Shown: positions 33,525 to 52,254 of the stretch, in pieces
Position numbering within the stretch: the first letter of the stretch is position 1
Layout: the number at the start of each line of letters is the position of its first letter
Source: an uncultured Pelagibacteraceae bacterium
GTDB lineage: Bacteria > Pseudomonadota > Alphaproteobacteria > Pelagibacterales > Pelagibacteraceae
Reading direction: 5' to 3'
Assembly (NCBI GenBank): GCA_902571135.1
Contig: CACGAU010000004.1
Coordinates: forward strand, 1 to 64,000
DNA: 64,000 bases
Made by a program: the position numbers and the translations under genes
Notes under the pieces: model-generated
The model's input: the letters and a program-made list of their open reading frames with translations, nothing else
Told to the model about the DNA's origin: nothing
Databases searched by the model: none

Positions 33525-35369
33525 TTATACACCTTGTCTTTGTTTGCCTTTTCCTTCTTTATAAAGTTTTAAAGCCTCTTCATTTTCTTTAGTTTTAGGA
33601 ATTTCAAGTGTTGGGCTATCCCAAAAAGCAGAACCCTCAACCCACTTATAAGCATGAGTTTTTATTGAAATAACGTATGTTACATCAGATGCTTTTGCTC
33701 TCTTAAATGCAGCTTCAAGATCTGAAATTGAATTAACATGTTCAGATTTAGCTCCCATACTTTCTGCATGTTTTGCAAAATCAACATCAACTAATCCTGG
33801 GGTATTAGAGCTCTTTAATAAGTTATTATATTCTTTACCACCTTTAAATAGTTGAAGTCGATTGATAACTGCAAACCCACCATTATCACAAACTATAATT
33901 ATCAATTTGTTTTTTGTAATAACTGATGAATAAATATCTGTATTATTTAGAAGATAAGAACCATCTCCTACAAAAGAAATTACTTCTTTATCAGGATTAG
34001 CCATTTTTATTCCAAGTGCTCCTGAAATTTCATAACTCATACAACTAAAACCCCACTCTGTTTCATGAGTATTTAATTCTCTAGGTCTCCAAACTTGAAC
34101 AACTTCACCAACCAAACCTCCTGCTGCAGTAACAGCTATATCTGTTGGGTCAGAGTTTCTATAAATTGCACCAATTACCTGAACATAACTTGGAACTTCT
34201 TGATTTGTTGGCGCACTCTCTTTATCTATATGTTCATTCCAAGATTTGAGTTCAGTTTGAGATTTTTTATTCCATTCTTCTCCAGCTTTCCAACTGCCTA
34301 ATGCTAGTGAAAGCTCTGTTAATGAAACTTTAGCATCTCCAATGACAGCTTGTGCTAAATGTTTGTTAGCATCAAATCTTGATACATTTATTGAAACTAG
34401 TTTAAAATCTTTGTTTTCAAAATTTGCCCATGATCCAGTTGTAAAATCTGCAAGTTTAGTTCCAACTGCAATTGCTAAATCTGTTTCTTTTGCTAATGTA
34501 TTTGTATTTTTTCCACCTAAACCGCCAATCTGGCCTGCAAAATGAGAATGATCTCTTTTCATTGTAGAATATCCCATTACAGTTTGAGTGACTGGTATAT
34601 TATGTTTAATCGCAAATTGACTTAACTCATCCATTGCATCTGAGTAAAAAACTCCACCACCAGAAATTATAATTGGATTTTTTGATAATTTAATTTTTTC
34701 TGCTGCTTCTTTGATTTGAAATTCATCTGGTCTTGGTCTTCTGATCGCGTGGACTCTTTCCTTAAAAAATTCCTCAGGATAATCAAAAGTTTGACCTTGT
34801 ATATCTTGACTTAAAGCGATACATGCAGGACCACAATCTGCAGGATCTAACATTGTTTGAATAGCTGCCGGGAATGATTGAATAATCTGCTCTGGTCTTG
34901 TTATTCTATCAAAATATCTTGTAACTGGTTTAAATGCATCATTAGCTGTAATTCCAGGGTTATTAAAATGCTCAACTTGTTGCAATACTGGGTCCGGCAT
35001 TCTATTTGCATAAGTGTCTCCAGGTAAAAATAAAATTGGTAATCTGTTACTCATAGCAACTGCAGCAGCTGTAACCATATTTGTTGCCCCAGGTCCAACA
35101 GAGGATGTTGCTACAAAAATTTGTTGTCTTCTTTTTGCTCTAGCATAGCCAATTCCCGTAAGGGCCATATTTTGTTCGTGATGCCCCCTATATGTTGGAA
35201 GTTCTTTTTGATTTTCCTCTAGTGCTTGACCTAGACACGCTACATTTCCATGTCCAAAAATTCCAAAGACACCTGGAAATAAAGGTTCTTTTTTACCGTT
35301 AATTAATATTTTCTGAGCAATTAAATATTTAACTATCGCATGAGCACATGTGAGGGTAATTTTTTTCAT
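33525..35369 (-). CDS. iolD: 3D-(3,5/4)-trihydroxycyclohexane-1,2-dione hydrolase (TPP-dependent)
   Basis: PGVFGIFGHGNVACLGQAL, YRGHHEQNMALTGIGYARA, TPP-binding FVGDGSYLLNNTDIYSSV region. Confidence 0.93.
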   Translation of the reverse strand: MKKITLTCAHAIVKYLIAQKILINGKKEPLFPGVFGIFGHGNVACLGQALEENQKELPTYRGHHEQNMALTGIGYARAKRRQQIFVATSSVGPGATNMVTAAAVAMSNRLPILFLPGDTYANRMPDPVLQQVEHFNNPGITANDAFKPVTRYFDRITRPEQIIQSFPAAIQTMLDPADCGPACIALSQDIQGQTFDYPEEFFKERVHAIRRPRPDEFQIKEAAEKIKLSKNPIIISGGGVFYSDAMDELSQFAIKHNIPVTQTVMGYSTMKRDHSHFAGQIGGLGGKNTNTLAKETDLAIAVGTKLADFTTGSWANFENKDFKLVSINVSRFDANKHLAQAVIGDAKVSLTELSLALGSWKAGEEWNKKSQTELKSWNEHIDKESAPTNQEVPSYVQVIGAIYRNSDPTDIAVTAAGGLVGEVVQVWRPRELNTHETEWGFSCMSYEISGALGIKMANPDKEVISFVGDGSYLLNNTDIYSSVITKNKLIIIVCDNGGFAVINRLQLFKGGKEYNNLLKSSNTPGLVDVDFAKHAESMGAKSEHVNSISDLEAAFKRAKASDVTYVISIKTHAYKWVEGSAFWDSPTLEIPKTKENEEALKLYKEGKGKQRQGV

Positions 35370-35461: not shown

Positions 35462-36904
35462 ATGTACGAAAAATTTGGACAATTCATTGACGGTAAATGG
35501 CAACAAGCTGAAAAAAAAGAAACTTACGACGTAATCAACCCTGCAACAGAAGAAGTAATTGGAAAAGCATCAAAAGCTTCATCTATTGAAGTACAAAAAG
35601 CATTAAAGTCTGCAGAAAAAGGTTTGGAAGTTTGGAAAAACACTGCACCATGGCAAAGAGCTTACGTGCTTAGAAAAATTGCAGACATGATGAGAGAAAA
35701 AAAAGATGTTATAGCAAAATGGTTAACTCTTGAAGTTGGAAAGCCTCTTGCAGAAGCAGTTGGTGAAGTTGGTGGTGGAGCTGATATTTTTGAGTGGAAT
35801 GCTGAAGAAACAAAAAGAATTTATGGTCAAACACAACAAAGTAGATTTCCAGATACTAGAGTCCATGTTTATTATCAACCCGTGGGAGTTGTTGCAGCTT
35901 TAGTTCCTTGGAATTTCCCAATAGTTTTAGCATCTAGAAAAATTTCTACCGCCCTAGCTGCAGGATGTTCTGTAATTTGTAAGCCTGACGTAATTACCCC
36001 TGGTGCTGTAATGGAATTAGTAAACATTTGCAAAGAAGCTGGAGTACCTGATGGTGTTGTTAGTCTTTTGTCAGGTGATCCCGCTGAAATATCAAATGAA
36101 TTAATGGAATCGGATATAATTAAAAAAGTTTCAGTTACTGGATCGACTAGAGTTGGTAAAATTATTTTAAAAAAAGCAGCTGATAAAGTTCAAAGAGTTA
36201 CTATGGAGCTAAGCGGACACTCACCTTTTATTGTATGTGAAGATGTAGACATGAACAAAGTAGCTGATATAGCAATAACTGGTAAATTTAGAAATAACGG
36301 TCAGGTCTGTATTTCACCTAATAGATTTTATATCCAAGAAAATAGAAAAGAGGATTTTGTTAATGCCTTTATTGAAAGGGCAAAAAAATTAAAAATTGGA
36401 AACGGTATGGACGAAGGTGTAGATCTTGGACCTTTAACTACCGCTAAAAGATTGGAAGAAATAGAAAAACTAGTTGAAACTACTAAAAAAGAAGGAGCAA
36501 AAGTATTAATGGGTGGACAAAGACCTTCTGGTTTCAACAAAGGATACTATTATGAACCAACAGTCTTTGATGATGTTAAAGACAATTTTACAATCATGAA
36601 AGAAGAGCCTTTTGGTCCACTAGTACCAATTTTAACTTTTAAAACTTTTGATGAAGTAATTGAAAGAGCAAATGATAATGACTTAGGATTATGTAGTTAT
36701 TTATACACTAACTCTATGGATAAAGCTCACATAGGATCTGAAAAATTAGAGTCTGGTTGTGTTGCAGTTAACACTGGAGTTGTTGCTATTGCTGAAGCAC
36801 CTTTTGGAGGAATAAAACAAACTGGTTATGGACGTGAAGGTGGTTCAGGTGCGATAAAAGATTATCTAAATGTGAAATACACTCACATGGGTTTAAAAAT
36901 CTAG
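35462..36904 (+). CDS. NAD(P)-dependent aldehyde dehydrogenase (succinate-semialdehyde dehydrogenase-like)
   Basis: VPWNFPIVLASRKISTALAAGCSVICKP, VTMELSGHSPFIV, FRNNGQVCISPNRFY. Confidence 0.92.
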   Translation: MYEKFGQFIDGKWQQAEKKETYDVINPATEEVIGKASKASSIEVQKALKSAEKGLEVWKNTAPWQRAYVLRKIADMMREKKDVIAKWLTLEVGKPLAEAVGEVGGGADIFEWNAEETKRIYGQTQQSRFPDTRVHVYYQPVGVVAALVPWNFPIVLASRKISTALAAGCSVICKPDVITPGAVMELVNICKEAGVPDGVVSLLSGDPAEISNELMESDIIKKVSVTGSTRVGKIILKKAADKVQRVTMELSGHSPFIVCEDVDMNKVADIAITGKFRNNGQVCISPNRFYIQENRKEDFVNAFIERAKKLKIGNGMDEGVDLGPLTTAKRLEEIEKLVETTKKEGAKVLMGGQRPSGFNKGYYYEPTVFDDVKDNFTIMKEEPFGPLVPILTFKTFDEVIERANDNDLGLCSYLYTNSMDKAHIGSEKLESGCVAVNTGVVAIAEAPFGGIKQTGYGREGGSGAIKDYLNVKYTHMGLKI

Positions 36905-36907
36905 AAA

Positions 36908-37702
36908 ATGAGAAAAAATAAAATCAAACAAATGATGAAGGAAGGTAAACCTGTTATTAACGGCTGGTGTGCTATTCCAAGTACAGCCTCAGTTGAAGCA
37001 ATGGCTCATCAAGGTTGGGACTCTTTAACTATTGATATGCAACATGGATTAGTTGACTACAGTAATGCGCTTCCCATGCTTCAGACAATATCAACAACAG
37101 ATGTAACTCCTTTAGCTAGAGTTAATTGGAACGAACCAGGTCAAATTATGAAAATTTTAGATGCTGGATGTTACGGAATTGTTTGTCCTATGGTAAGTAA
37201 TAAAAAAGAGGCAGAGAATTTTGTTCAAGCTTGCATGTATCCACCTGATGGCTACAGAAGTTTTGGTCCTATTAGAGGTTTAATTTATGGTGGAGCTGAT
37301 TATGCAGATCACGCTAATGAAGAAATACTAAAATTAGCAATGATAGAAACAAAAGAGTCTTTAGAAAATCTTGATGAGATAATGTCTACACCAGGTGTTG
37401 ATGGTATTTATATTGGTCCAGCAGATTTAAGTTTAGCAATAGGTGAAAAACCTGGTTTTGATAGGTCTGAGTCTACAAAAGCTTATTCTGAAATTTTAAG
37501 AATTCTAGAACATGCTAAAAAAAATAATATTTTTGCAGGAATTCATAATGGCACTACAGAATATGCTACTAAGATGATCGAAAAAGGTTTTGATTTTGTA
37601 ACTATAGCATCTGATTTAAGAGCTTTAAGTGCTGGCGCTAAAGCCACAGTAGATAAAATGAAGGGTTCTTTATCAAAAAAAGACGACAACTCTACTTACT
37701 AA
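36908..37702 (+). CDS. HpcH/HpaI family aldolase
   Basis: GWDSLTIDMQHGLVDY, ARVNWNEPGQIMKILDAGCYGIVCPMV, GVDGIYIGPADLSLAIG. Confidence 0.92.
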   Translation: MRKNKIKQMMKEGKPVINGWCAIPSTASVEAMAHQGWDSLTIDMQHGLVDYSNALPMLQTISTTDVTPLARVNWNEPGQIMKILDAGCYGIVCPMVSNKKEAENFVQACMYPPDGYRSFGPIRGLIYGGADYADHANEEILKLAMIETKESLENLDEIMSTPGVDGIYIGPADLSLAIGEKPGFDRSESTKAYSEILRILEHAKKNNIFAGIHNGTTEYATKMIEKGFDFVTIASDLRALSAGAKATVDKMKGSLSKKDDNSTY

Positions 37703-38514
37703 TCAAGTTGGTCTAAAAATTCCTCAAATTGTTTTTTTTCTAAATTTGAAGATTGTTTTTTTCCTGGGAATTTTCCATTCATTGAATCTTTTTTAAAAGC
37801 CTTAAGAGCTTTTACTCTTTCTAGTTTTATTTCATTTCTAAGTCTCAATAAATTTCCATATGCTTTTGAATGTCTTGGAGGATTCTCTGTATCACCACAG
37901 ATATCTTCCATAAATAAATACATTACATCAGCGTTTTTACCTGAGCCTAATGAAACAGTAACTATATCTGTACGCTTTGAAATTTCACCCATTACATTTT
38001 CAGGTATTACTTCACACTCAGCTGAAAAAGCACCTGCATCTTCTAATCTTTTAAACTTTTGAAAAAGCTCGTATGCTTCATCAGCAGTTTTACCAACAGC
38101 TCTTAAGCCACCAATCCAAGTAGATTTTCTTGGAACTAAACCTAAATGCCCCATTACTGGAACATCTTCTTTAGCCAGCATTTCAACTATATCCATACTT
38201 CTTGGTGTCATAACTGCATCCGCACCATTCTCCAATGCTTTAAAAGCTCCACGCATAATATCCTCCGCAGTTACAAACTCATTTAAAACTAAAGCAGCTG
38301 TTAAAAATAAATTTTTTGAACCTTCTCTTACAGGAATTACATTTTTTGCATTTGATATAATCATATCAAATCCTGCCTTTGCAGCTGCCTCGGCTTCTTC
38401 AACACTATTCGCTGTAACTTGTGTAAATTTTCTTTTTCCTTTTGCTGCTTTTAAATCCCCAACAGTCAAAGTTCGTTTTGCTGGTTTAGCGGCCCAAGTA
38501 TAGATATTCTTCAT
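37699..38514 (-). CDS. Divergent PanB-family (ketopantoate hydroxymethyltransferase-like) protein
   Basis: VPVMGHLGLVPRKSTWIGGLRAVGKTADEA resembles PanB, but the VGDSLGM and VKIEGG motifs are not present. Confidence 0.7.
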   Translation of the reverse strand: MKNIYTWAAKPAKRTLTVGDLKAAKGKRKFTQVTANSVEEAEAAAKAGFDMIISNAKNVIPVREGSKNLFLTAALVLNEFVTAEDIMRGAFKALENGADAVMTPRSMDIVEMLAKEDVPVMGHLGLVPRKSTWIGGLRAVGKTADEAYELFQKFKRLEDAGAFSAECEVIPENVMGEISKRTDIVTVSLGSGKNADVMYLFMEDICGDTENPPRHSKAYGNLLRLRNEIKLERVKALKAFKKDSMNGKFPGKKQSSNLEKKQFEEFLDQLD

Positions 38515-38927
38515 CTTACACCTTTATAAAGAATATCTCTCCTATCAATAAATTCCTCAAAAGTTTTAATGGTAATTACTGAAGGTAAAATAAATATAGA
38601 TCTTTTATCTCGCTCGTTTCTTATAATTCTAAAATAACCTTTTTTTATTGCTGTATCGATATAAACATTTGAGGTTAAATATGATTTCTCGATTACTTTA
38701 AGTAATTGATTTTTTGTAATTGATTTATTTTTGTAATAAGCAAGCATCACCATATGCAACATTATCCAATGTTGTGGGGTTAAAGAAAACCAATTCAATA
38801 ACTCATTGGCTAATCTTCCTTCAAAATCTCCAAGTGATATTTCTGCTAATTGAATTCTTTTTTGAGTAAGTTTTGGAATTTTTTTTTGTTCTTCGAAGTG
38901 CTTAGGATACTTGAACTGTCTTTTCAT
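38511..38927 (-). CDS. MarR/winged-helix-like transcriptional regulator
   Basis: WFSLTPQHWIMLHMVMLAYYKNKSITKNQLLKVIEKSYLTSNVYIDTAIKKGYFRIIRNERDKRSIFILP. Confidence 0.65.
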   Translation of the reverse strand: MKRQFKYPKHFEEQKKIPKLTQKRIQLAEISLGDFEGRLANELLNWFSLTPQHWIMLHMVMLAYYKNKSITKNQLLKVIEKSYLTSNVYIDTAIKKGYFRIIRNERDKRSIFILPSVITIKTFEEFIDRRDILYKGVR

Positions 38928-38955: not shown

Positions 38956-39933
38956 CTATTCAATACTATTTTTACTCAATAGTTCTTTATAAATGTTATT
39001 TACTCTATGTACTTCAGTAGCAGTATTAAAATAACCTTCATATTCTATTTCTTCAGGTGTGACATCAAAATGATAATGTCCAGCGTCTTTATCATGTTCA
39101 TAAGAATGAAAGTGAGTATGTTCACCAGACTCTCTTAAATTTAATTTCCCTCCTGTAGGATCTCCAGTCCAAAGAACTGTATAACACTGTAACTTTGGAC
39201 CAACAGGTTCATAAAATTGAAGAAAATCTTTTACACACTTCATTTGTTTTGGATCATAGTATTCATGTTTGATGTCTTTATAATCTGGTTGAACATGAGA
39301 CCTTACTTTTCCCTCTAGAATTCTAAATACACCTGCAAGAGCAATCTGTTCATTTACTTTTAGATTTAAATTATTTGACAATGAAGACCTCATTGCTTGT
39401 GGCAATGAACCTTGATCTCCTGATCTTCCTTTGATTTTTATTTTAATGACTTTTCCTTGTTTACCATCAGTATAATAAATGTTTCCAAGTCCACCATGTT
39501 TTCTTGCGCTATATTTTTCAACAATACATTTTTTGTCAGGACTTACTCTTGCAATTATAGATCTGGACTCATCAGTAATTAAATTTTCATTAATTACTAA
39601 TTCACCACAGTGACCATCCAAACACGACATTGCACCAGATCCTGCACCTAAAGCATAAGATTTTTCTGATCCAATCATTTTTGAAATTTCTTTGTAATCA
39701 AATTCTGCACCAATAAAATTAGGATCATGCATGTATGGCTCTCCACCAACATCTATGATTTTTTGGTTACCGCTTATTCCTTCAGATGGACAATCCCATT
39801 CACGAAGATTAGGACAATCTACAACTTCTACTTCAACATTTTTAAAATTTTCTGAAAGTCCTTTTTTTAATGCAATCGCTATATCTTCAAGTGAATGATT
39901 TGTGAAAGTTCCTTTTTCTATTTTTAATTGCAT
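38956..39933 (-). CDS. DUF1907 / C11orf54 (PTD012)-like putative metal-dependent ester hydrolase
   Basis: VVDCPNLREW.CPSEGISG, YALGAGSGAM, LNLRESGEHTHFHSYEHDKDAGHYHFDVTPEEIEYEGYF (His-rich metal site). Confidence 0.85.
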   Translation of the reverse strand: MQLKIEKGTFTNHSLEDIAIALKKGLSENFKNVEVEVVDCPNLREWDCPSEGISGNQKIIDVGGEPYMHDPNFIGAEFDYKEISKMIGSEKSYALGAGSGAMSCLDGHCGELVINENLITDESRSIIARVSPDKKCIVEKYSARKHGGLGNIYYTDGKQGKVIKIKIKGRSGDQGSLPQAMRSSLSNNLNLKVNEQIALAGVFRILEGKVRSHVQPDYKDIKHEYYDPKQMKCVKDFLQFYEPVGPKLQCYTVLWTGDPTGGKLNLRESGEHTHFHSYEHDKDAGHYHFDVTPEEIEYEGYFNTATEVHRVNNIYKELLSKNSIE

Positions 39934-40020: not shown

Positions 40021-40965
40021 ATGATAAATAAAGATTTAAATGTAGCCGTATTAGGTGCAGGTGCTATGGGATGCCTGTTTGGAGGATTGCTAGCTGAAAA
40101 AGGTTTAAATGTAACTTTAATTGACGTTTGGAAAGAACATGTAGATGCAATTAACAAAGATGGTTTGAAAATGGATGGCCATGGAGGAGATCGTATAATC
40201 AAAGTAAAAGCTACTTCAGATCCATCGTCGTTAGATAAAATGGATGCAGTGATTGTTATGTGTAAAGCAACTGCATTAGAACCAGCATTAAACAGTATTA
40301 AAAATATTATTGGTGAAAAAACAGTCTTCATGTCATTTCAAAATGGAATTGGTCATGAAGCAATTATTCAAAGTATTGTGGGTAATGAAAAAGTAATTGG
40401 TGGGACAACTACTCAAGCTTCAAACATTTTAGGACCAGGTCATATAATGAATCATGGTTCGTTACCATCTTGGATTGGTGAGTACGAGGGAGGAATTACT
40501 GATAGAATTAAAGAAATAGCAGATACTTTTACAGCACATAATCTTGAAATGATTGCTGCAGAAGATGTAAAGAAAAGAAAATGGATGAAGCTTTTTGCTT
40601 TAACAGCAATTGGACCATTATCTGCAATTTTTGATCTTCATCATACTGATTTGTATATAAATAATAAAGCAAACGAAGTATCTCGAGGATTGGGTAAAGA
40701 AATAATTTTAGAAACTAGGGAAGTTGCACTTGCTGATGGTGTAAATGTGTCCGAAGATGAATGCTTATTTATGTTCAATAAAATTGTAGATTCAATGCAA
40801 ACTAACAAGTCATCTATGGCTTTTGACGTTCAATACAAGAGAAAAACCGAAATAGATTTTATTAGTGGTGCAGTTTCAAAAATAGGTAAAAAACATGGTG
40901 TAAAAACACCTTTAAATGATCTTATGTATAAAATGATTAAAGTGAAAGAAGGTATGTACAGCTAA
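40021..40965 (+). CDS. PanE/ApbA family 2-dehydropantoate 2-reductase-like
   Basis: VAVLGAGAMGCLFGGLLAEKGLNVTLIDVW, MSFQNGIGHEAII, WMKLFALTAIGPLSAIF. Confidence 0.88.
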   Translation: MINKDLNVAVLGAGAMGCLFGGLLAEKGLNVTLIDVWKEHVDAINKDGLKMDGHGGDRIIKVKATSDPSSLDKMDAVIVMCKATALEPALNSIKNIIGEKTVFMSFQNGIGHEAIIQSIVGNEKVIGGTTTQASNILGPGHIMNHGSLPSWIGEYEGGITDRIKEIADTFTAHNLEMIAAEDVKKRKWMKLFALTAIGPLSAIFDLHHTDLYINNKANEVSRGLGKEIILETREVALADGVNVSEDECLFMFNKIVDSMQTNKSSMAFDVQYKRKTEIDFISGAVSKIGKKHGVKTPLNDLMYKMIKVKEGMYS

Positions 40966-41835
40966 ATGCTCAGTACAAATAAATTAAAAAAAATCAAAAG
41001 TAACTTTCCTGTTTTAGTTGGAGACAACGTTGTTTCAAAAAAAATCTGTAATTTATTAATTAAAGAAATAAGCAACTCAAAATCATTTGATGATATGATT
41101 ATGGGAGGTAGAAGCAGGATTAATAAAGGTTCAAAAAATTTTAATTTATATATTAAAAATTCAGTTAACTCTGCAAAACTTTTTAAGCTTTTTAATAGTA
41201 AGTCTTTTTATAAAAAAATTGAAAATCTTTTTACAAAAAATTTTAAGAATGGATCATGGGTAAATTTACATAAACCAAAATCATTTAATCCTAAAAAGTT
41301 CACTATAAAAAAAAAATTAAAGTCTAGTGAATTAAAAAAAATGTTGGGTAACAACTATACAAATCCTAAAGTAAATTTAGATATAGACTTTTCGGTATCA
41401 AAGGGAGGGTATAGATTGAGACCTCATCGGGATGATATAACTAGATTATATAATTTCTTAATTTATTTAACAGACATTCCAAAAAAGAATGGTGGGTCTC
41501 TCACAATTTATAGAAAAAAAGCAAAAAAAAATTTAAGAAAAAGCTTTAGAAGATTTCCAAAAATAACCGAACTTGAAATAGTGAAGTCTTTTACGCCAAA
41601 AAAAGGAACTGTTGTTTTTTTTCAGTCTACTCCAAATTCCTATCATGGCGTGAAGCGGTTTATAGAAAGAAATTGTCCAAAACGTTTTTTCATTTATGGA
41701 AGTTATGCCTTAAATAAACCGGTTATATGGAATTACAAAGGGATTTCATATTATCCGCACATAATTAGCACCAAAAAAAGAATGTTAACCTCTTTTCATG
41801 ATGCGAACTATTTAACCACAGCACCAAAACATTGA
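40966..41835 (+). CDS. 2-oxoglutarate/Fe(II)-dependent oxygenase (prolyl-4-hydroxylase-like)
   Basis: HxD in RLRPHRDDITRLYNFLIYLTD, distal His in TPNSYHGVKRF. Confidence 0.75.
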   Translation: MLSTNKLKKIKSNFPVLVGDNVVSKKICNLLIKEISNSKSFDDMIMGGRSRINKGSKNFNLYIKNSVNSAKLFKLFNSKSFYKKIENLFTKNFKNGSWVNLHKPKSFNPKKFTIKKKLKSSELKKMLGNNYTNPKVNLDIDFSVSKGGYRLRPHRDDITRLYNFLIYLTDIPKKNGGSLTIYRKKAKKNLRKSFRRFPKITELEIVKSFTPKKGTVVFFQSTPNSYHGVKRFIERNCPKRFFIYGSYALNKPVIWNYKGISYYPHIISTKKRMLTSFHDANYLTTAPKH

Positions 41836-41863: not shown

Positions 41864-42850
41864 ATGATGACAAATAGTCTTCAAAAAAAATTATATGAGA
41901 ATGGGTACTTGATTGTTAAAAATGTACTTAACTTTAGAAGAGACTTAAAACCAATTCTAAATGATATGGAATTTGTTATGGATTGTCTCATCCAAAAATA
42001 TGCAAAAAAAAGAGATATAAAAAAAGTTCTTAATTTCGATTTTAAAAAAAAATATTCTTATATATCAAAGCTTAATATTTATGATTTGGATCAGTATTTT
42101 AATACCCGATTGCCAAGAGACCACGTAAAAAAAGATAGTGATTATTTTGCTACTCAATCATTATGGAATTTAATTACTAATAAAAAAATTTTGGATGTTG
42201 TAGAAAAAATTTTAGGTGAAGAAATAATGTCTAACCCTGTTCAAAATACTAGAATTAAACAACCTGAAAAAAAATTACCTGAGGGATCAATTCATGATGG
42301 TTTAAGCGGCAGAACACCATGGCATCAAGATGCTGCTGTTTTAAATTCAAGAGGACAAAAATTAACTGACATGATTACTGTATGGATCCCTTTTACTAAA
42401 ACAACTAAGAAAAATGGATGCATGATTACAGTAAGAAAGATAAATAAAATGGGATTATTAAATCATGTATCAGGATACAGAGGGCAAGTAGAGTTAAAAA
42501 ATAGTAAATTACTTGATGACATGGAGCATATTTATTTAGAAGCAAATGTTGGAGATGTAATATTATTGCATAAACATTCTATACATTGCTCTTTACCAAA
42601 CAGATCAAATGATTTTAGGATAAGTGCTGATCTTAGATATAATGTTGCTGGACAACCATCAGGTAGAGAACCACTTCCAAATTTTTATGTAAGAAGTAAA
42701 AATAAAAAAAATCTCAAAGTTCAAAACTTTAAACAATGGTTATCTCTATGGGAAAAGGCAAAAGAAAAATGTATACCAAGAAAATATGCCTTTAAATATC
42801 CACTTCCAACGTATAAAAATAATAAAAGAGACTTATCTAATTTAGTTTAA
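41864..42850 (+). CDS. Phytanoyl-CoA dioxygenase (PhyH) family protein
   Basis: PWHQDAAVLNSRGQKLTDMITVWIPFT; distal SIHCSLPNRSNDFRISADLRY. Confidence 0.88.
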   Translation: MMTNSLQKKLYENGYLIVKNVLNFRRDLKPILNDMEFVMDCLIQKYAKKRDIKKVLNFDFKKKYSYISKLNIYDLDQYFNTRLPRDHVKKDSDYFATQSLWNLITNKKILDVVEKILGEEIMSNPVQNTRIKQPEKKLPEGSIHDGLSGRTPWHQDAAVLNSRGQKLTDMITVWIPFTKTTKKNGCMITVRKINKMGLLNHVSGYRGQVELKNSKLLDDMEHIYLEANVGDVILLHKHSIHCSLPNRSNDFRISADLRYNVAGQPSGREPLPNFYVRSKNKKNLKVQNFKQWLSLWEKAKEKCIPRKYAFKYPLPTYKNNKRDLSNLV

Positions 42851-42866
42851 TATTTATAAATAATTA

Positions 42867-43790
42867 ATGACTAAAATTTTAATTACTGAATTCATCAACC
42901 AAAATAGTTTAGAAAATTTAAATAAAAAATTTGATGTTAACTACGATGAAAAATTATGTGAAGATGGAAAAGAAATAATAAAAATAATTAGAGACTATGA
43001 TGGTCTAATTGTAAGAAATAAAACTCAAGTAAATTCAGATATTTTAAAAAATGCATTTAAATTAAAATTTATTGGAAGGTTGGGTGTTGGTTTGGACAAT
43101 ATTGATACAGAATATTGCAAAAATAAAAATATTCATGTTCAGCCAGCTACAGGAATGAATGCAGACTCTGTTGCAGAATATGTTGTTTCTTCATCAATGT
43201 CTCTTATAAAAAAAATCCCAATGTTTCATAATGGAACTATCAAGGGTGAATGGCCAAGAACAACAATTAAGTCAACAGAAATAAAACAAAAGAATTTAGG
43301 AATAATTGGATTTGGCACAATTGGAAAAAAAGTTGCTGAATATTCTTCAAAAAATGGTTTAAAGATTTTAGCCTACGATCCTTATATTAAGGAATTAAAT
43401 GATAAAGAAATTGATGCTAAATTATCAAGTTTAAATGAGATATATGAAAAATCAGATATCATTTCAATACACCTACCTTTAACAGATGAAACCAAAAATA
43501 TGATAAATAAATCGTCATTTTCTCAAATGAAAAATAAACCGATTATAATAAATACTTCTAGAGGAAGCGTCATAAATGAAAGTGATTTAATTGAAGCTTA
43601 CAATAAAAATAATATTTCTGGCTTTGCTCTAGACGTGTTTGAAAAAGAACCAATAAAGAGTGAATTTTATGACAAAATAAAACCAGGTATGAATTGTATA
43701 TTAACACCTCATATTTCTGGTGTAACAACTGAGTCAAACATTAGAGTAAGTGACTTTATAGTTAGAAAAATTACTGATTTTTTTAATTAA
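42867..43790 (+). CDS. D-isomer specific 2-hydroxyacid dehydrogenase (phosphoglycerate dehydrogenase-like)
   Basis: LGIIGFGTIGKKVAEYS, HLPLTDETKNMI, NTSRGSVINE, LDVFEKEP, TPHISG. Confidence 0.9.
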   Translation: MTKILITEFINQNSLENLNKKFDVNYDEKLCEDGKEIIKIIRDYDGLIVRNKTQVNSDILKNAFKLKFIGRLGVGLDNIDTEYCKNKNIHVQPATGMNADSVAEYVVSSSMSLIKKIPMFHNGTIKGEWPRTTIKSTEIKQKNLGIIGFGTIGKKVAEYSSKNGLKILAYDPYIKELNDKEIDAKLSSLNEIYEKSDIISIHLPLTDETKNMINKSSFSQMKNKPIIINTSRGSVINESDLIEAYNKNNISGFALDVFEKEPIKSEFYDKIKPGMNCILTPHISGVTTESNIRVSDFIVRKITDFFN

Positions 43791-44865
43791 TTATTTCTTC
43801 TAGATTTATTAATCGACCTTGTTTTATTGACTGCTCTGCAGCCTCTCCCACAGCAACAGCAATTAAACCATCTTCTAATGAAACCTCTGGATCTGAATTA
43901 TTTTCAATAGCTTTCAAAAAAGCTAAGTGTTCGTAGTAAGTAGATCCATGATGGTGGCCGGCCTCAAGAATTTTTTTATCTACTTCAATATTTTCAACAT
44001 GTGTTTTGCCATCTCTCATCCCAATTCTTATATTTGATGAGGTTTTACCTGAGTCATCGGAGGGCACTGAAGTTTCAATTTTTCCTTTATTTCCAGTGGC
44101 TACAAGCTCTTCTTGCATGTCAGAATTTTCTGCAAACATACAAAGCTCAAGCAAACTTCTTGCTCCATTTTCAAAATTTACAATCACATAGGCATTATCA
44201 ATGATGTCTGGCTTTTTTCCATTATACACTTCATCTAAATGGTTAACGTCTTGACCACCACTTGCGTAAACACTAAGTGGCTTACTTTGAATGATCAATC
44301 TCATTAAATCAAAGAAATGGCAGCATTTTTCAACAAGTGTACCACCAGTATTTTCTTCAAAACGATTCCAATCATTTACTTTTTTTAAAAAAGGAAATCT
44401 ATGTTCCCTTATAGTTAAAGTCTTTAAATCACCAATTTTGTTATTATGAATTTCATTAATAAACTTTGAAACTGGCGGCATATATCTATACTCCATCGCA
44501 GTCCAAAATACTGAAGGATAATCTTTTGTAAGTTTTTTTATTTCTAAACAATCTTTTGTATTAGTGCATAATGGTTTTTCTACTAATATGTGTTTTTTAG
44601 TTTTGATTACATCTTTCAAGATTTCTAAATGAGTAAAGTTGGGGGATGAAATTAAGTATACATCAACAATATTTTTTTCAATCATTTCTAAATGATTTTT
44701 AAAACAAAAAATTTTTGTTTTTAGAATTTCTTTACACTGATTTAATGAATCTTCATGAGGATCAGCAAGTGCAACTACTTCAGTATTATCAATTAATGAT
44801 ATATTTAAAATATGTTCTCGAGCCATTGTCCCTGCTCCAATAATTCCATATTTTATTTTTTTCAT
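43783..44865 (-). CDS. Gfo/Idh/MocA family oxidoreductase
   Basis: KYGIIGAGTMAREHI, HILVEKPLCT. Confidence 0.9.
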   Translation of the reverse strand: MKKIKYGIIGAGTMAREHILNISLIDNTEVVALADPHEDSLNQCKEILKTKIFCFKNHLEMIEKNIVDVYLISSPNFTHLEILKDVIKTKKHILVEKPLCTNTKDCLEIKKLTKDYPSVFWTAMEYRYMPPVSKFINEIHNNKIGDLKTLTIREHRFPFLKKVNDWNRFEENTGGTLVEKCCHFFDLMRLIIQSKPLSVYASGGQDVNHLDEVYNGKKPDIIDNAYVIVNFENGARSLLELCMFAENSDMQEELVATGNKGKIETSVPSDDSGKTSSNIRIGMRDGKTHVENIEVDKKILEAGHHHGSTYYEHLAFLKAIENNSDPEVSLEDGLIAVAVGEAAEQSIKQGRLINLEEIIN

Positions 44866-44895
44866 ATTCTGTTTGTATCAGTTTAATTTAAAAAC

Positions 44896-46227
44896 TTAAT
44901 CAATACTTAGCCCGCTTGGCACTTTATCTGGTTTACCTAGCGGTCTCTGATTTCCACTTCTGCCAGTTAAAGATTTGAGAAAAGAAACAAGTTCATCAAT
45001 TTCTTTATCATTCAATTCTATAGGCTGTATGTCAATGCTTGATAGAATTCTGTCTTGTTCTCTTTTGTCTGAAAAAGTTACAAAATCAATTTCTTCTAAC
45101 CAAGGTGCTTTAGGTAAATTTGCATATTCGGGTTTCCAATTTTTATTCATTTTTATTGGATTTAAATGATGTTTAATTATTGATTTTAAAGTTGGATAAG
45201 CACCATTATGACCGTAGGGAGCTGTTAAAGAAACGTTTCTTAATGCTGGGGTTTTGAATTTATACATATCGTTTATATTGTCTGTTTCAACCATTCTTCC
45301 AACATCACGTGCATAAGGGTCAAAAGGTCTTGTCCTTCCAGGCCCAAATTGCGGAATTCCTATTGAATGAAATTTTTGATCTGACAACAAAGATCCTGAA
45401 TGACAAGAACTACAGTTTGCTTTTCCATAAAATAAGTTCATACCATTTATTTGCTTTAAAGTTAAAGCTTGTTTATCTCCATTTAAATATTCATCAAAGG
45501 GAGAGTCAAAAGATGTCCATTCATGAATTTCAAATGCAGCAATTGAATTAACAATATGTGTAATGTTGATATCTAAAGAACTGTTAACATCATCAAAAGC
45601 ATTTTTAAATAACTCAACATACTCCGGAATTCCTCTAATCCTGTGAGTAATTACAGGCCATACTCTATCAATTCTCATACTATCTTTTCCAACTTTTGAG
45701 ACTAAGCCTATAATTTCATTTTCACCTGGATTTCCTGCCATCTCAAACTGTCTAGTCATCGGAAACAAAGCTTGAACTGCAACTATATTAACAAGTCCTT
45801 TAGGAAGAGCTTCTTGAGCAGGCGTATTAAAACCGTTACCAAATATATTTGATTTGGTTACTCTTCCGTCATGCAACAAGGTAGTTATGTCTTTAAATCC
45901 TAAATTCCATAAAGCTAAAGCATTTCTTGGAATTCGTTTTTTTATTTTATCATCGCCTTCACCTGCGGTTCTCTCTAATCCTATACCTTGACCTCCTTCA
46001 CCAATGCCTAAAGAAAGTCCATCTGAACCTCCTAGATCATGACTATGGCAGGTTGCGCAAGCAATGTTTCGATTTGCAGATAAAATTTTATCATGAAATA
46101 AAAGTCTTCCAATTTTAACTTTTTCTATATCAACTTGATGGAAATCTTCGCTCTTTAATGGTTTTGGTAAATCAGTTGCGTAAGTTTTATTTACTGAAAT
46201 TAAAAATGGAATTATAAATATTATTAT
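44896..46227 (-). CDS. Cytochrome c peroxidase/MauG-family di-heme protein
   Basis: Two CxxCH sites (CATCHSHDLGGSDG, CSSCHSGSLLSDQKFHSIGIPQFGPG); signal-peptide-like IIIFIIPFLISVNKTYA. Upstream part of the reported ORF is antisense to 46234..46704 and rejected; 5' boundary approximate. Confidence 0.82.
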   Translation of the reverse strand: MIIFIIPFLISVNKTYATDLPKPLKSEDFHQVDIEKVKIGRLLFHDKILSANRNIACATCHSHDLGGSDGLSLGIGEGGQGIGLERTAGEGDDKIKKRIPRNALALWNLGFKDITTLLHDGRVTKSNIFGNGFNTPAQEALPKGLVNIVAVQALFPMTRQFEMAGNPGENEIIGLVSKVGKDSMRIDRVWPVITHRIRGIPEYVELFKNAFDDVNSSLDINITHIVNSIAAFEIHEWTSFDSPFDEYLNGDKQALTLKQINGMNLFYGKANCSSCHSGSLLSDQKFHSIGIPQFGPGRTRPFDPYARDVGRMVETDNINDMYKFKTPALRNVSLTAPYGHNGAYPTLKSIIKHHLNPIKMNKNWKPEYANLPKAPWLEEIDFVTFSDKREQDRILSSIDIQPIELNDKEIDELVSFLKSLTGRSGNQRPLGKPDKVPSGLSID

Positions 46228-46233
46228 TTTTAA

Positions 46234-46704
46234 ATGATTAAATATCTTTTTATACTTTTGTTTCTTCCATCCATAGTTTTTGCAGAAATAGAAAATGCTC
46301 GAGATTTGATGGAACAAGGAAAATTTAAAGAAGCTATGGAAGAACTTATGCCAGCAGCTAGATCTGGTAATGCTGATGCTGAAGAGCTTATTGGAATTAT
46401 GTACGCTATGGGTCTTGGTGTTGAAAGAGATGATGTTAGAGCTTTTGAATGGTATCTCAGATCTTCTATGAAAGGTCATCCTGGTGCTCAATCTGGTGTT
46501 GGGTGGTATTACGAAATTGGTAGAGGACTTCCTGCTCCCGATCTTGTAAGAGCTTATATGTGGTACGGTTTGTCTGCTATTGGTGGAGATCCTGATGCTG
46601 CAATTTCTCAGGAAGAAGTTATTAAAAAAATGACTCCTGAACAAATTGAAAAAGCTCATATTCTCATAAAAGATTATAAATCTTGGATATATCCTTTTAG
46701 ATAA
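46234..46704 (+). CDS. Secreted Sel1-like/TPR repeat protein
   Basis: Signal peptide; ADAEELIGIMYAMGLGVERDDVRAFEWYLRSSMKGHPGAQSGVGWYYEIGRGL. Confidence 0.88.
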   Translation: MIKYLFILLFLPSIVFAEIENARDLMEQGKFKEAMEELMPAARSGNADAEELIGIMYAMGLGVERDDVRAFEWYLRSSMKGHPGAQSGVGWYYEIGRGLPAPDLVRAYMWYGLSAIGGDPDAAISQEEVIKKMTPEQIEKAHILIKDYKSWIYPFR

Positions 46705-46731
46705 TGAGGCGAACTAAAATCCGCCCCATTA
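46702..46731. terminator. Bidirectional hairpin between convergent Sel1 and dctP genes
   Basis: TAATG-A-GGCG...CGCC-C-CATTA. Confidence 0.6.
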
Positions 46732-46744
46732 TATTAATTTGAAA

Positions 46745-47797
46745 TTACAAATCTTTTTTGTATGCGCTCGATGCCTTTTTCTCTGCTTTAGCTACTGCTT
46801 TAGTTAAAGCGTTGAAAATTTCTTTTCCACCTTTAACATTAGCTTTAAACCAATCATACACTGGGCTAGCTTCTTTTTTAAAACTAGCTTTTTGATCAGG
46901 AGTAGGAACATATAAATCTCCACCACCTGCTACAAAGTCCTCGTAAGCTTTGATTGATTTTCTCTTAGGAGAAGCAAAAGTTGCTTGTTGCAAAGCATAG
47001 AAACCATCAGTCACAACTTTTTTAAGATCTGTTGACATTGATTGATATTTTGCATTATTCATCCACCATAATGCACCCATGTATGCATGACCGTCTAAAG
47101 TAACGTATTTTAGACCTGCATCAGGAAACTTCATGTTCATAATGTCAGTTATTCCATTTTTAGATCCTTCAACTACACCAGTTTGAAATGATGTAAACAA
47201 TTCCGGCCATGGAATAGGAGTTGGAGATGCACCTAATGCTCTTACAAGCTCCTGAGGTAAATCAGCTACAACTGTTCTGATTTTTAAACCTTTCATGTCA
47301 GATGGATTTGCAACTCTTCTTTTTGTATTAGCAAAATTTCTCCATCCTCCAGTATTTCCAATTGTCATCAATCTAATTGAGTCATTAGAATCTTTTAGAG
47401 CCATTTTTCTCATTGTTCTTACAAAATCACCTTGCATTACATCTTCAGCAATTCTGTCATCAGCCATTAGATAAGGTAAATCTAAAACTTGAACATATGG
47501 GAATACGCCTGCAGCACCTCCAGAAGTAGAAATGTAAATATCTATACTTCCATCAGATACACCTTGTAAACACTCAGCACCTTTTGAACAAAGCTGCGTA
47601 CCTACAAATAGTTCTACAGCTATTTTTCCATTTGAAGCTGCTTCTACGTAGTTTTTAAATACAACAGCACCATCATAATCTTCATCTTGATCATTAGAGT
47701 TCATTGTCATTCTCAAGTTATAATCTGCAGCTGAAACAGATGCAGTAAAACTAATTAAGAATAATAATGAAAAAAATGATTTTATTGTTTTACTCAT
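46745..47797 (-). CDS. dctP: TRAP transporter solute-binding protein
   Basis: Signal peptide; KGLKIRTVVADLPQELVRALGASPTPIPWPELFTSFQTGVVEGSKNGI. Confidence 0.93.
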   Translation of the reverse strand: MSKTIKSFFSLLFLISFTASVSAADYNLRMTMNSNDQDEDYDGAVVFKNYVEAASNGKIAVELFVGTQLCSKGAECLQGVSDGSIDIYISTSGGAAGVFPYVQVLDLPYLMADDRIAEDVMQGDFVRTMRKMALKDSNDSIRLMTIGNTGGWRNFANTKRRVANPSDMKGLKIRTVVADLPQELVRALGASPTPIPWPELFTSFQTGVVEGSKNGITDIMNMKFPDAGLKYVTLDGHAYMGALWWMNNAKYQSMSTDLKKVVTDGFYALQQATFASPKRKSIKAYEDFVAGGGDLYVPTPDQKASFKKEASPVYDWFKANVKGGKEIFNALTKAVAKAEKKASSAYKKDL

Positions 47798-47821
47798 AAT
47801 TATTTCCCTCTCTTTAAATAT

Positions 47822-47844
47822 TTATGTATATAAACTATACTTAA
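47822..47844. promoter_or_regulatory. Candidate operator, weaker 9-5-9 palindrome variant
   Basis: TTATGTATA-TAAAC-TATACTTAA upstream of dctP. Confidence 0.3.
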
Positions 47845-47886
47845 ATTGATTTAGAGAGTCTATCGAGTAGTAAAAAAAAATTATAT

Positions 47887-49176
47887 TTATTTTGCGAAAC
47901 CAGTAAGCAAAGGAATAGTCATTGATATTGACGGAAAATAGGTTATTAAAAAAATAACTATAGCTTCTACTGCTAAGAATGGCAATATAGCTTTTGCTAT
48001 TGTTTCAACTCTTTCCCCAGATACAGAGGATGCAACAAATAATACAAGTCCCATTGGTGGAGTTGCTAAACCAACTGTTAAATTAACGGACATAATAATT
48101 GCAAAATGCACAGGATGAACTCCCAACTCAACAAACACTGGTCCAAGAATTGGTCCTAAGATTATTATCGCTGGACCTGCATCTAAAAACATTCCAACAA
48201 CAAATAATAAAATATTTATAAGAAATAACAAAACATAAGGATTGTCAGTTAATCCCAAGACGAATGCAGCAAGATGCTCAGGTGCATGTGATAAACTTAC
48301 AACTGTTTTAAAAGCCATTGCAGCACCAACTAAAAGAAGAACCACTGAAGATACCATCGCTGCTTTTGTCATCACTTTAGGAACATCTTTCCATTTTAAT
48401 GATTTCAAAACAAATAAACCAATAAACATTGCATAAGCAGCTGCTACAGCTGATGCTTCTGTTGGTGTAAAAATTCCTCCAAGGATACCTCCTAAAATTA
48501 TTACAGGTGTCATCAAAGGGAAAAAAGCTTTAAGAGATGCTTTGCCTCTTTGGCTCCAAGTTGTTTTTTCGGTTACTGCTGGAAAATTATATCTCTTAGC
48601 CATAAATTTTATTGTAATCATCAAGCTGACCCCAACTAAAATACCAGGTACAATTCCTGCTAAAAATAATGCAGCAACACTTTCACCCATTACATATGCA
48701 TAAATAATCATTATCCCTGAAGGTGGAATTATAGGTCCAATTACAGAACTCGCTGCTGTAATTGCAGCAGCAAATTTTTTTGTATAGCCTTGCTTTTCCA
48801 TTGCAGGAATAAGCATTGATCCAATTGCTGATGTATCAGCTACAGCTGAACCAGATAAACCTGCAAACAACATTGAAGTTAGTACATTGACATGAGCCAA
48901 TCCACCCTTTAAGTGGCCCATCATCGCCTGACTAAATTCAACTAGTCTATGAGTTATTCCTCCTCTGTTCATTAACTCTCCGGCTAACATAAAAAATGGT
49001 ATTGCCATCAAAGGGAAGCTATCTATTCCATTATAAATATTTCTATAAAGCATAGCTCCATCTCTAGCTTGATCATTAAGCCAAAGCAAAATTCCTGGTG
49101 CTGCTAACAATCCAAAAAATACAGGTAAACCAATTAACAAAAATAATAAAAATAAAGGAAGAAACCAAACTAACAT
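47887..49176 (-). CDS. dctM: TRAP transporter large permease
   Basis: SFPLMAIPFFMLAGELMNRGGITHRLVEF, VIGPIIPPSGIMIIY, VNLTVGLATPPMGLVLFVASS. Confidence 0.95.
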   Translation of the reverse strand: MLVWFLPLFLLFLLIGLPVFFGLLAAPGILLWLNDQARDGAMLYRNIYNGIDSFPLMAIPFFMLAGELMNRGGITHRLVEFSQAMMGHLKGGLAHVNVLTSMLFAGLSGSAVADTSAIGSMLIPAMEKQGYTKKFAAAITAASSVIGPIIPPSGIMIIYAYVMGESVAALFLAGIVPGILVGVSLMITIKFMAKRYNFPAVTEKTTWSQRGKASLKAFFPLMTPVIILGGILGGIFTPTEASAVAAAYAMFIGLFVLKSLKWKDVPKVMTKAAMVSSVVLLLVGAAMAFKTVVSLSHAPEHLAAFVLGLTDNPYVLLFLINILLFVVGMFLDAGPAIIILGPILGPVFVELGVHPVHFAIIMSVNLTVGLATPPMGLVLFVASSVSGERVETIAKAILPFLAVEAIVIFLITYFPSISMTIPLLTGFAK

Positions 49177-49772
49177 TATTGCGTCTCCAACTTTTGTTTA
49201 TCGTAATCTTCAGGCAAGTCCAACTTTGTAAAATTAGTAAGAATATTTCTTAAAATTAACTCTATATTCACAGAAATTAAAAAAATAATTCCCACAGGTA
49301 ATGACAAATACATCCAAGCTAATTTTATTGGTTCTGCTTTCCCGCCAATTAAATGAAAAGGAATCTTTATCGATGAAGAATAAAATATCCATCCAGCATT
49401 AATATGTTTAAATCCTAATTCCAAACCTATTACTAATACAAAAAGAGAAACGATTAATAAAAATAAAGTTAATAATGTGGAGATAAGTTTTGGTAAAAAT
49501 CTCTCTAGTAAATCAATAGAAACAAATCCACCCCATCTATACGCAGATGGTGCAATCAATCCTGTCATCCATAACATCAAAAATCTAGCAACTTCATCGG
49601 GCCATGGCAGTGCATTATTTAATACATATCTAAAAAATACTTGCACCAAGATGACAATCACCATCAAAAGTATTGCTATCCATGCAAACTGTCTTCCAAT
49701 TCTTAAAAAAAAAGTATTTATTTTCTCAAGGATCTTAAAAAAAGATAGGAGAATGTTAATTGTCAAATTCAC
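49176..49772 (-). CDS. dctQ: TRAP transporter small permease
   Basis: Four-TM DctQ pattern (FFRYVLNNALPWPDEVARFLMLWMTGLIAPSAYRWGGFVSIDLL). Confidence 0.9.
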   Translation of the reverse strand: MNLTINILLSFFKILEKINTFFLRIGRQFAWIAILLMVIVILVQVFFRYVLNNALPWPDEVARFLMLWMTGLIAPSAYRWGGFVSIDLLERFLPKLISTLLTLFLLIVSLFVLVIGLELGFKHINAGWIFYSSSIKIPFHLIGGKAEPIKLAWMYLSLPVGIIFLISVNIELILRNILTNFTKLDLPEDYDKQKLETQ

Positions 49773-49883
49773 AGCTAAATTTATTTTAAATATTTAATAA
49801 ATACAACTTTAATCAAAAAACTAATTTACTTTATAGAATAATTCTCGTATTAAAAATGCTCTCTAAAAAATTGATATATAATT

Positions 49884-50849
49884 ATGAGCAATAAAAAAAA
49901 GATATTAATTATTCAAAAAGTCCATGAAAAAGGTATGGAATTAATAAATAGCCATCCTAATTTTGATGTTGAAGTAACTGATGACACTTCAATAGAAAAT
50001 TTAAAATCAAAATTAAAAGATTGCGATGGTGCATCAATAAGAATTGCAAAACTTCCTGGTGAAACCTTTGAAGAAGCAAAAAATTTAAAAATTATTTCAA
50101 GACATGGTGTAGGTTACGACAATATCGATTTAAAAAAAGCTAAAGAAAAAGATATAAAAATAGCAATAACAGCTAATGCTAATGCTGTTACGGTTGCAGA
50201 ACATGTAATGTTCGTTTTGTTAAATATTGCAAAAAGAAAAGACTTATTTGACAAAACAGTAAGAGATGGAAATTTTAAAGACAGAAATAAATTACCAAAA
50301 ACAATAGAAGTTTGGAAAAAAAATTTTTTGATAATGGGTTTTGGAAGAATAGGAAAAGCTTTAATCAAAAGATGTCTAGGTTTTGAAATGAATGTATTCG
50401 TTTATGATCCATTTGTAGACAAAGATAAAATTGAAGAATTAGGAGGAAAAAAAGTAGAAGATCTAGCCGATGCAGTAAAAACTATGGATGTTATTTCGCT
50501 CCATATGCCTTTAACGGATAAAACTGAAAATTTAATTAATTATGATTTATTAAAAACAATGAAAAAGACTTGCATTATCATTAATGCAGCAAGAGGTGGA
50601 ATTATTCATGAAGAAGATCTTGATAAAGCGCTCAATGAAAATTTAATTTTTGGAGCTGGTATTGATGTTTTTAAAAAAGAACCACCTGATGATAATAATC
50701 CACTTCTCAAAAATGAAAAAGTTTACTTAAGCCCACATACTGCAGCTTTTACCGATGAATGTATGACAAGAATGGGTAAAGAGACAATTCAAAATATTAT
50801 TGATTTTTTTGAGGAAAAGTTAGAAAAATCTAAAATTGTAAAACTTTAA
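49884..50849 (+). CDS. D-isomer specific 2-hydroxyacid dehydrogenase
   Basis: FLIMGFGRIGKALIKRC, HMPLTDKTENLI, NAARGGIIHEEDL, GIDVFKKEPP, SPHTAAFT. Confidence 0.9.
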   Translation: MSNKKKILIIQKVHEKGMELINSHPNFDVEVTDDTSIENLKSKLKDCDGASIRIAKLPGETFEEAKNLKIISRHGVGYDNIDLKKAKEKDIKIAITANANAVTVAEHVMFVLLNIAKRKDLFDKTVRDGNFKDRNKLPKTIEVWKKNFLIMGFGRIGKALIKRCLGFEMNVFVYDPFVDKDKIEELGGKKVEDLADAVKTMDVISLHMPLTDKTENLINYDLLKTMKKTCIIINAARGGIIHEEDLDKALNENLIFGAGIDVFKKEPPDDNNPLLKNEKVYLSPHTAAFTDECMTRMGKETIQNIIDFFEEKLEKSKIVKL

Positions 50850-50850
50850 T

Positions 50851-51351
50851 ATGAAAATTAATTTCAAAAATTTTGGATTTTTAGAATTTTTAGTATCAGC
50901 GGCTACAATCTTTGTAGTTGGTATGTTAATTTGGACAGCAAGTACAAGACCAGCTGTTGAAGCTAAAGCTAATTTAGTAAAAGAAAATCACAACAAAGTC
51001 GTTGATCTAATTAATGATGAAATTAACAAGTGTGGTAATAACGATGAAGGTAAATTCACTGTTTGGGGTGATCCATGTAATGGTGAATGGATAGCTGATA
51101 AAGTTGTTAATTATATCAATGAAAATTTAAAAATAGAAAATCCATTTTCTGACGATTCAAAAGTAAAAACTGATCCTGATCCTAGAATAAAAGCTGAAGG
51201 TAAAGCTGGTCAATCAGTTGAGATGGGGGTGATCTTTGTTATGTCCTCAAATTTTTTGCCTGATCCTGGTTCTGAATGGATTGTTGGTACTTGCTTCAAA
51301 TCTCCTTGTGTTGCAGCAGGAAATAACGAACTTACTTCTATTTATAGATAA
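50851..51351 (+). CDS. Hypothetical membrane-anchored/pilin-like protein
   Basis: Single N-terminal TM (FGFLEFLVSAATIFVVGMLIW) and Cys-containing extracytoplasmic domain. Confidence 0.55.
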   Translation: MKINFKNFGFLEFLVSAATIFVVGMLIWTASTRPAVEAKANLVKENHNKVVDLINDEINKCGNNDEGKFTVWGDPCNGEWIADKVVNYINENLKIENPFSDDSKVKTDPDPRIKAEGKAGQSVEMGVIFVMSSNFLPDPGSEWIVGTCFKSPCVAAGNNELTSIYR

Positions 51352-52254
51352 TTAATTTTTATAGATCTCTATATTACTTTTATTTAAGGTTTCGGTTAAA
51401 TATTTATAACCAATCTTTGCATATTCAAAAGGATTTGCTTTTGCTGGATCTTGCTCAGCTTCAACTACCAACCAACCTGAATAATTTTTTTCTTTTAATA
51501 CATCAAATAATGGTTTGTAATCAATACAGCCATCTCCAGGTACCGTAAAAGCACCTTCTAAAAATGCGCCTCTAAAACTTAAATCTTCTTTTAATGATTT
51601 GTCTAAAACATTTTTTCTAATATCCTTACAATGAATATGAATAACTCTATCACCAAAATTTTTTATAATTTTAAGAGAATTGCCTTGAGCAAAAAGCATA
51701 TGACCAGTGTCTAAAGTAAGTTTTACGCTATCGTCAGTGTTTTCTAGCAATCTTATAGTGTCTTCCTCGGTTTCTATAACTGTCCCCATGTGATGATGGT
51801 AAGCAAGAGGCATTCCTTGATCTTCTAAATATTTTCCCATCTCTGAAATTTTTGCATAGTATTCTCTGGCTTCATCAAGATTCATTTTTGGCCTTGTAGA
51901 AAGTTTTCTATTTGGGTCTCCTTGAATTGAACCTGAGACTTCTGCAAAAACCATGCAGGGAGAGTTACAATCTTTGAACAATTTTAGCTGAGCTTGTATT
52001 AAATTTTTTTCCTCATTAACGGTGTTTTTTCTTAAATTTGCACCATACCAACCTGAACAAAGATTTAAGCTAAACTCTTTTAATTTAGGAATTAATTCAT
52101 CAGAATTTTTAGGAAATTTACCTCCAGACTCAATTCCAATAAATCCTGCTTGACTAGCTTCTGATAAGCATTGTTCCAAAGAAGTATTGCCCCCAAGTTC
52201 TGGCATGTCATCATTGCTCCATGCTATTGGTGCTATTCCTAATTTTACTGACAT
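51352..52254 (-). CDS. iolE: Inosose dehydratase-like (sugar phosphate isomerase/epimerase TIM barrel)
   Basis: LGIAPIAWSNDDMPELGGNTSLEQCLSEASQAGFIGIESGGKFP, LAYHHHMGTVIE, LTLDTGHMLFA. Confidence 0.88.
   Translation of the reverse strand: MSVKLGIAPIAWSNDDMPELGGNTSLEQCLSEASQAGFIGIESGGKFPKNSDELIPKLKEFSLNLCSGWYGANLRKNTVNEEKNLIQAQLKLFKDCNSPCMVFAEVSGSIQGDPNRKLSTRPKMNLDEAREYYAKISEMGKYLEDQGMPLAYHHHMGTVIETEEDTIRLLENTDDSVKLTLDTGHMLFAQGNSLKIIKNFGDRVIHIHCKDIRKNVLDKSLKEDLSFRGAFLEGAFTVPGDGCIDYKPLFDVLKEKNYSGWLVVEAEQDPAKANPFEYAKIGYKYLTETLNKSNIEIYKN

Follow-up and report, generated by a model that had tools for sequence, protein, structure and literature searches.

The locus raises the question of what a relative of the human protein C11orf54 (PTD012; DUF1907 family) does in a bacterium, and whether the genes around it can reveal its reaction. 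The window (the whole 64,000-nt stretch of DNA that was analysed) comes from a SAR11 bacterium (Pelagibacteraceae). For positions 38956–39933, the original prediction proposed a bacterial C11orf54 homologue with a metal-binding region (EHTHFH...GHYHFD), set among PanE-like, PanB-like and aldolase genes and possibly active on hydroxy-acid esters or lactones.

An intact DUF1907 gene in SAR11

The gene and its motif region are as follows:

38956–39933, minus strand: DUF1907 (PF08925) protein, 325 aa, homologue of C11orf54/PTD012 (Pfam, phmmer, alignment, structural model, dN/dS)
39064–39123, minus strand: predicted metal-binding region, codons 271–290, EHTHFHSYEHDKDAGHYHFD (alignment)

The predicted coordinates are exact for the ORF, which reads from the minus strand; across this interval, many stop codons interrupt the plus strand. 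The protein covers all 285 positions (1–285) of the Pfam profile PF08925, its sole Pfam match, at 208.6 bits (E value 1.7e-61; gathering cut-off 25 bits), and phmmer returned a single relative in the PDB, human PTD012/C11orf54 (1XCR, E value 1.3e-40). In a five-sequence alignment, 81 columns are invariant and the window protein is approximately 40 % identical to its human counterpart, C11orf54; the proposed homology therefore stands. The protein contains the predicted EHTHF...GHYH(F/Y)D region, which is invariant across 23 SAR11 sequences and, in the five-sequence alignment, the human protein; H272, H274 and H286 are unchanged in all 23 and align with the human sequence. From the alignment, we take these three histidines to be the likely zinc ligands.

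An AlphaFold2 model built from the 23 SAR11 sequences, and SAR11 sequences only, was of moderate confidence (pLDDT 68, pTM 0.75) and resembles the 1XCR fold over its whole length (Foldseek E value 2.4e-20, TM about 0.7). Foldseek with this moderate model returned no significant match besides 1XCR, and acetolactate decarboxylase was not recovered. The dN/dS of the gene against ten relatives is 0.06–0.13, indicating that it is maintained under purifying selection. The DUF1907 gene in the window is thus intact, full-length and real.

Malatesta et al. (2025), as relayed in a PNAS commentary (PMC12435205), assigned human C11orf54 (EC 4.1.1.34) as a 3-dehydro-L-gulonate decarboxylase with L-xylulose as its product; the substrate is an alpha-hydroxy-beta-oxo acid made by the preceding dehydrogenase. 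A 2026 paper repeats this assignment (PMC12921845). On this account, the description of the animal family as having an unclear physiological substrate is outdated. The ester hydrolase annotation of the family stems from the hydrolysis of p-nitrophenyl acetate by human PTD012, the zinc of which is held by three conserved histidines and the fold of which is related to that of acetolactate decarboxylase (similar substrate, 14 % identity) (PMC12435205). Rotifers carry DUF1907 in fusion with a 3HCDH domain, the kind of dehydrogenase that produces the substrate of the decarboxylase (PMC12435205). Our literature search found no report of the activity of any bacterial DUF1907 member.

DUF1907 is patchily distributed within SAR11

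A scan of public genomes, which used motif patterns and favours close relatives, confirmed 155 loci, and the 80 listed all belong to Pelagibacteraceae/SAR11. In whole-genome samples reaching up to the phylum Pseudomonadota, DUF1907 was detected in 22/118 genomes (3/14 genera) of the window's family and 61/297 genomes (3/11 genera) of its order, and, the window's own genome aside, in none of the 385 class and 399 phylum genomes. Its occurrence is patchy inside each of the three genera; two near-complete genomes of the window's genus (G207 and G297) lack it. No DUF1907 was found in plasmid and phage collections and no motif-pattern match in IMG/VR was confirmed as DUF1907, so we rejected viral or plasmid carriage in these collections. 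SAR11 may have gained the gene by transfer from eukaryotes.

A conserved cassette surrounds DUF1907

The following neighbours make up the cassette in the window:

37699–38514, minus strand: PanB-like protein, 271 aa, cassette member (PF02548; co-occurrence)
38511–38927, minus strand: small protein, 138 aa, candidate cassette regulator, 28 nt downstream of DUF1907 (weak Sar/MarR-type winged-helix match)
40021–40965, plus strand: PanE/ApbA-like NAD(P)-dependent dehydrogenase, divergent from DUF1907 and 87 nt apart (Pfam, TIGR00745, co-occurrence)
40966–41835, plus strand: 2OG-Fe(II) oxygenase family protein (PF13640), cassette member in the window's genus and genus g279
41864–42850, plus strand: PhyH-type 2OG-Fe(II) oxygenase (PF05721), cassette member in three genera

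Pfam matches confirmed that the PanE-like and PanB-like genes, together with an HpcH/HpaI aldolase, are all present near DUF1907. In the window's genus, the gene order (PanB-like, 138 aa protein and DUF1907, then the divergent PanE-like, 2OG oxygenase and PhyH genes) recurs in single-cell and metagenome-assembled loci and in larger genomes. The PanE-like gene adjoins DUF1907 in every locus of this genus whose contig extends that far, and the divergent gap measures 85–88 nt in 80/80 loci holding both genes. The PanB-like gene is missing in some loci (e.g. L023, L025 and L041). The 138 aa protein accompanies DUF1907 in the window's genus, and its match to TIGR01889 (26 bits) is under the cut-off. 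In genera g277 and g279, the core genes occur with Liv-type ABC and EamA transporters, an acyl-CoA synthetase, a crotonase, an enolase-superfamily enzyme, a CitE-like lyase and an HpaH/FAH-like protein. For the binding protein of the g279 Liv-type transporter (L089:2336–3538) and for the enolase-superfamily enzyme, the relatives on plasmids were too distant to name a substrate. A survey of the DUF1907 neighbourhood, set beforehand as a test of the original prediction, thus found PanE-like, PanB-like and PhyH partners conserved over three genera.

The PanB-like proteins of g277 and g279 (L110:3822–4634 and L089:8199–9011) share 98.5 % identity, as against approximately 70 % for DUF1907 and approximately 87 % (partial alignment) for the PanE-like protein, suggesting that part of the cassette was recently transferred. 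The gene that follows PhyH also varies (window 41864–52187 and its equivalents in L015, L022, L023 and L036): it may be the gene at 42867 with a TRAP-transporter module or a Gfo/Idh gene accompanied by a different ABC module, or the gene at 49884 may come next without either; this region looks like a hypervariable insertion site. Repeats near the cassette were limited to AT-rich pairs of a chance-like kind.

Cassette genes co-occur with DUF1907

We compared 44 SAR11-family genomes from three genera, 22 with and 22 without DUF1907, and found the following pattern. Orthologues of the PanE-like dehydrogenase (at least 75 % identity) occur in 18/22 DUF1907-positive and 0/22 DUF1907-negative genomes, as do those of the PanB-like protein (at least 73 % identity; 18/22 versus 0/22), while PhyH orthologues (at least 49 % identity) occur in 19/22 versus 0/22. 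The HpaH/FAH-like gene is present in 18/22 positive genomes (none of the window's genus), against one broken copy among the negative ones. Fisher tests, uncorrected for relatedness, gave a P value of 1.4e-8 for the PanE-like gene and about 1e-8 or less for each; since DUF1907 is patchy in three genera, shared lineage alone is unlikely to explain this strict co-occurrence. In three of the four positive genomes without a PanE-like gene (G447, G452 and G491), the DUF1907 contig ends inside the cluster, short of the PanE-like position, and in the fourth (G441) it is only 3,148 bases long. The cassette is therefore patchy and co-inherited in SAR11.

The aldolase belongs to a separate inositol module

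The cassette adjoins genes of an inositol module:

33525–35369: IolD, above cut-off
35462–36904: aldehyde dehydrogenase
36908–37702: HpcH/HpaI aldolase
51352–52254: IolE, above cut-off
53413–54426: IolG, above cut-off

In three DUF1907-negative genomes (G207, G493 and G489), the module is uninterrupted, and 7–25 nt separate the aldolase from the homologue of the gene at 49884; in the window, that gap holds the DUF1907 cassette together with further genes. The cassette is thus inserted into a separate inositol module, of which these three genomes preserve the empty site. In the DUF1907-negative IolD genomes that we read, the IolD–aldehyde dehydrogenase pair likewise stands without the cassette, and in g277 and g279 DUF1907 is located elsewhere in the genome. 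As the aldolase is adjacent by insertion, it says little about DUF1907, and we rejected the aldolase and inositol genes as its partners. The expectation that genomic context would be informative therefore held for the co-occurring PanE-like and PanB-like partners and not for the aldolase. The link between DUF1907 and inositol is weakened by these data; IolD is still commoner with DUF1907 (21/22 positive genomes, one with a partial gene, versus 6/22 negative ones).

IolB was detected in 0/44 SAR11 genomes, while the Bacillus subtilis, Caulobacter and Corynebacterium glutamicum controls were detected. Its absence alongside IolD, IolE and IolG points to a non-canonical route for the steps of inositol breakdown below 5-deoxyglucuronate, in which the neighbouring aldehyde dehydrogenase and HpcH/HpaI aldolase may take part; our literature search found nothing specific on SAR11 inositol catabolism. 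In other SAR11 genera (L118, L119, L121 and L122), the next gene after the module's aldolase encodes a protein of approximately 710 aa and lies 241–242 nt away in the two loci measured.

The PanE-like and PanB-like partners diverge from their namesakes

The PanE-like protein passes TIGR00745 (238 versus 141 bits) and is matched over its length by 22 PDB sequences. Like PanE/ApbA ketopantoate reductases, it keeps the catalytic Lys and the Glu (TEID); unlike them, it has Leu and Gly in place of the two pocket Asn of the family in an alignment with 5HWS. This replacement makes an altered substrate plausible. PanE-family enzymes are best known for acting on 2-oxo acids rather than 3-hydroxy acids.

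The PanB-like protein scores 91.7 bits against a PanB cut-off of 207.55 and falls short of both PanB models by over 100 bits, and the positions aligned with what we take to be the PanB metal ligands are replaced, with no acidic residue among them. Judged by its sequence, the product of 37699–38514 is not a genuine PanB, and a role in pantoate synthesis does not follow from its name. Relatives with 55–59 % identity are encoded on rhizobial plasmids (Mesorhizobium L104 and Bradyrhizobium L105), where the neighbours are a sterol-desaturase-type protein and a Rieske ferredoxin rather than pan genes. As in SAR11, the PanB-like gene there sits beside a gene of hydroxylase type, again tying it to hydroxylation; the hydroxylase is of another family, however, and the plasmid collection holds no DUF1907. 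The conserved rhizobial clusters (L104:8840–13704 and L105:8729–14547) comprise an AraC regulator, a ribokinase-like protein, the PanB-like protein, the sterol-desaturase-family protein, the Rieske ferredoxin and an FAD-dependent oxidoreductase, and we found nothing specific on them in the literature.

A putative decarboxylase in a candidate catabolic cassette

We consider it probable (roughly 0.6) that SAR11 DUF1907 is a zinc-dependent beta-oxo-acid decarboxylase, probably acting on an alpha-hydroxy-beta-oxo acid like 3-dehydro-L-gulonate within a catabolic cassette. We infer this chemistry, the order of the steps and the role of the PanE-like protein as a beta-hydroxyacid dehydrogenase from the reaction of the human member, the full-length 40 % identity, the zinc motif and the pairing with a dehydrogenase. 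The five to six genes would form a catabolic unit in which the first step may be hydroxylation of an incoming organic acid by the 2OG oxygenases. The PanE-like dehydrogenase would then oxidize the hydroxyl beta to the carboxylate, yielding a beta-keto acid, which DUF1907 would bind at its three-His zinc site, stabilizing the resulting enolate and freeing CO2. The product might pass to the PanB-like protein and, in the other SAR11 genera, to the acyl-CoA synthetase, crotonase, enolase-superfamily, CitE-like and HpaH/FAH-like enzymes.

The putative order of a PanE-like step followed by DUF1907 would echo the animal pathway. The SAR11 protein shares with human C11orf54 its full-length family membership, identity, three-His motif and modelled fold; it differs in being bacterial, in having a dehydrogenase partner of PanE type instead of 3HCDH type and in a cassette in which no L-xylulose genes were recognized. 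The rotifer fusions (PMC12435205) likewise link a dehydrogenase to DUF1907, there as one protein with a 3HCDH domain and in SAR11 as a divergent gene pair with a dehydrogenase of another family. Acetolactate decarboxylase (PDB 4BT4), reported to have a related fold and a similar substrate (PMC12435205), is absent from the fold matches of the SAR11 model.

Within the decarboxylase reading, a special case is that SAR11 carries out exactly the animal reaction, 3-dehydro-L-gulonate to L-xylulose, with the PanE-like protein replacing L-gulonate 3-dehydrogenase. The identity to the human protein, its invariant columns and a window rich in sugar transport and sugar-acid genes fit this idea; however, neither L-gulonate 3-dehydrogenase nor L-xylulose reductase nor xylulokinase was recognized in the cassette across three genera, and the g277/g279 cassette, with its Liv-type transporter, acyl-CoA synthetase, crotonase and CitE-like lyase, is unlike pentose metabolism. 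The presence of such CoA-linked enzymes in two genera speaks against a simple pentose pathway, and we therefore regard the human substrate as unlikely. A search for MIOX gave no match, and the controls were likewise undetected. The chances appear even that the cassette is instead an undescribed SAR11 catabolic route, in which what the PanE-type dehydrogenase and DUF1907 process is not 3-dehydro-L-gulonate but another compound, and in which a PanB-like protein of new function and the 2OG oxygenases also take part.

The readings that depart from decarboxylation in this cassette fare worse. The proposed esterase or lactonase activity on hydroxy-acid lactones draws on the hydrolysis of p-nitrophenyl acetate by human PTD012 (PMC12435205), and a zinc site could hydrolyse lactones; yet that annotation derives from a model-substrate assay, the reaction given in the commentary (PMC12435205) is decarboxylation, which fits better, and no lactone-forming enzyme is fixed in the cassette. 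We therefore set it aside as the main explanation on that literature and deem it improbable. Equally doubtful is a role in SAR11 inositol catabolism, with DUF1907 processing the beta-oxo acid from 5-deoxyglucuronate where IolB is absent: IolG, IolE and IolD above their cut-offs, the missing IolB and the skew of IolD towards DUF1907-positive genomes speak for it, against which stand the six DUF1907-negative genomes that keep IolD, the empty site and the separate location of DUF1907 in g277 and g279. Least credible of all is pantoate or pantothenate metabolism, suggested by the ApbA/PanE and Pantoate_transf Pfam matches and the TIGR00745 score; we rejected it on the PanB model scores, and the replaced metal-ligand positions and the rhizobial relatives away from pan genes also stand against it.

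The family assignment of the SAR11 protein is in itself ordinary; what is new is the co-inherited cassette, a bacterial setting for a family whose reaction was only recently assigned. The analysis also corrects an outdated esterase reading and separates the informative neighbours from those adjacent by insertion. SAR11 bacteria rank among the ocean's most abundant cells, and their diet is only partly known; the cassette offers a concrete candidate pathway and would place the C11orf54 family in a second physiological context.
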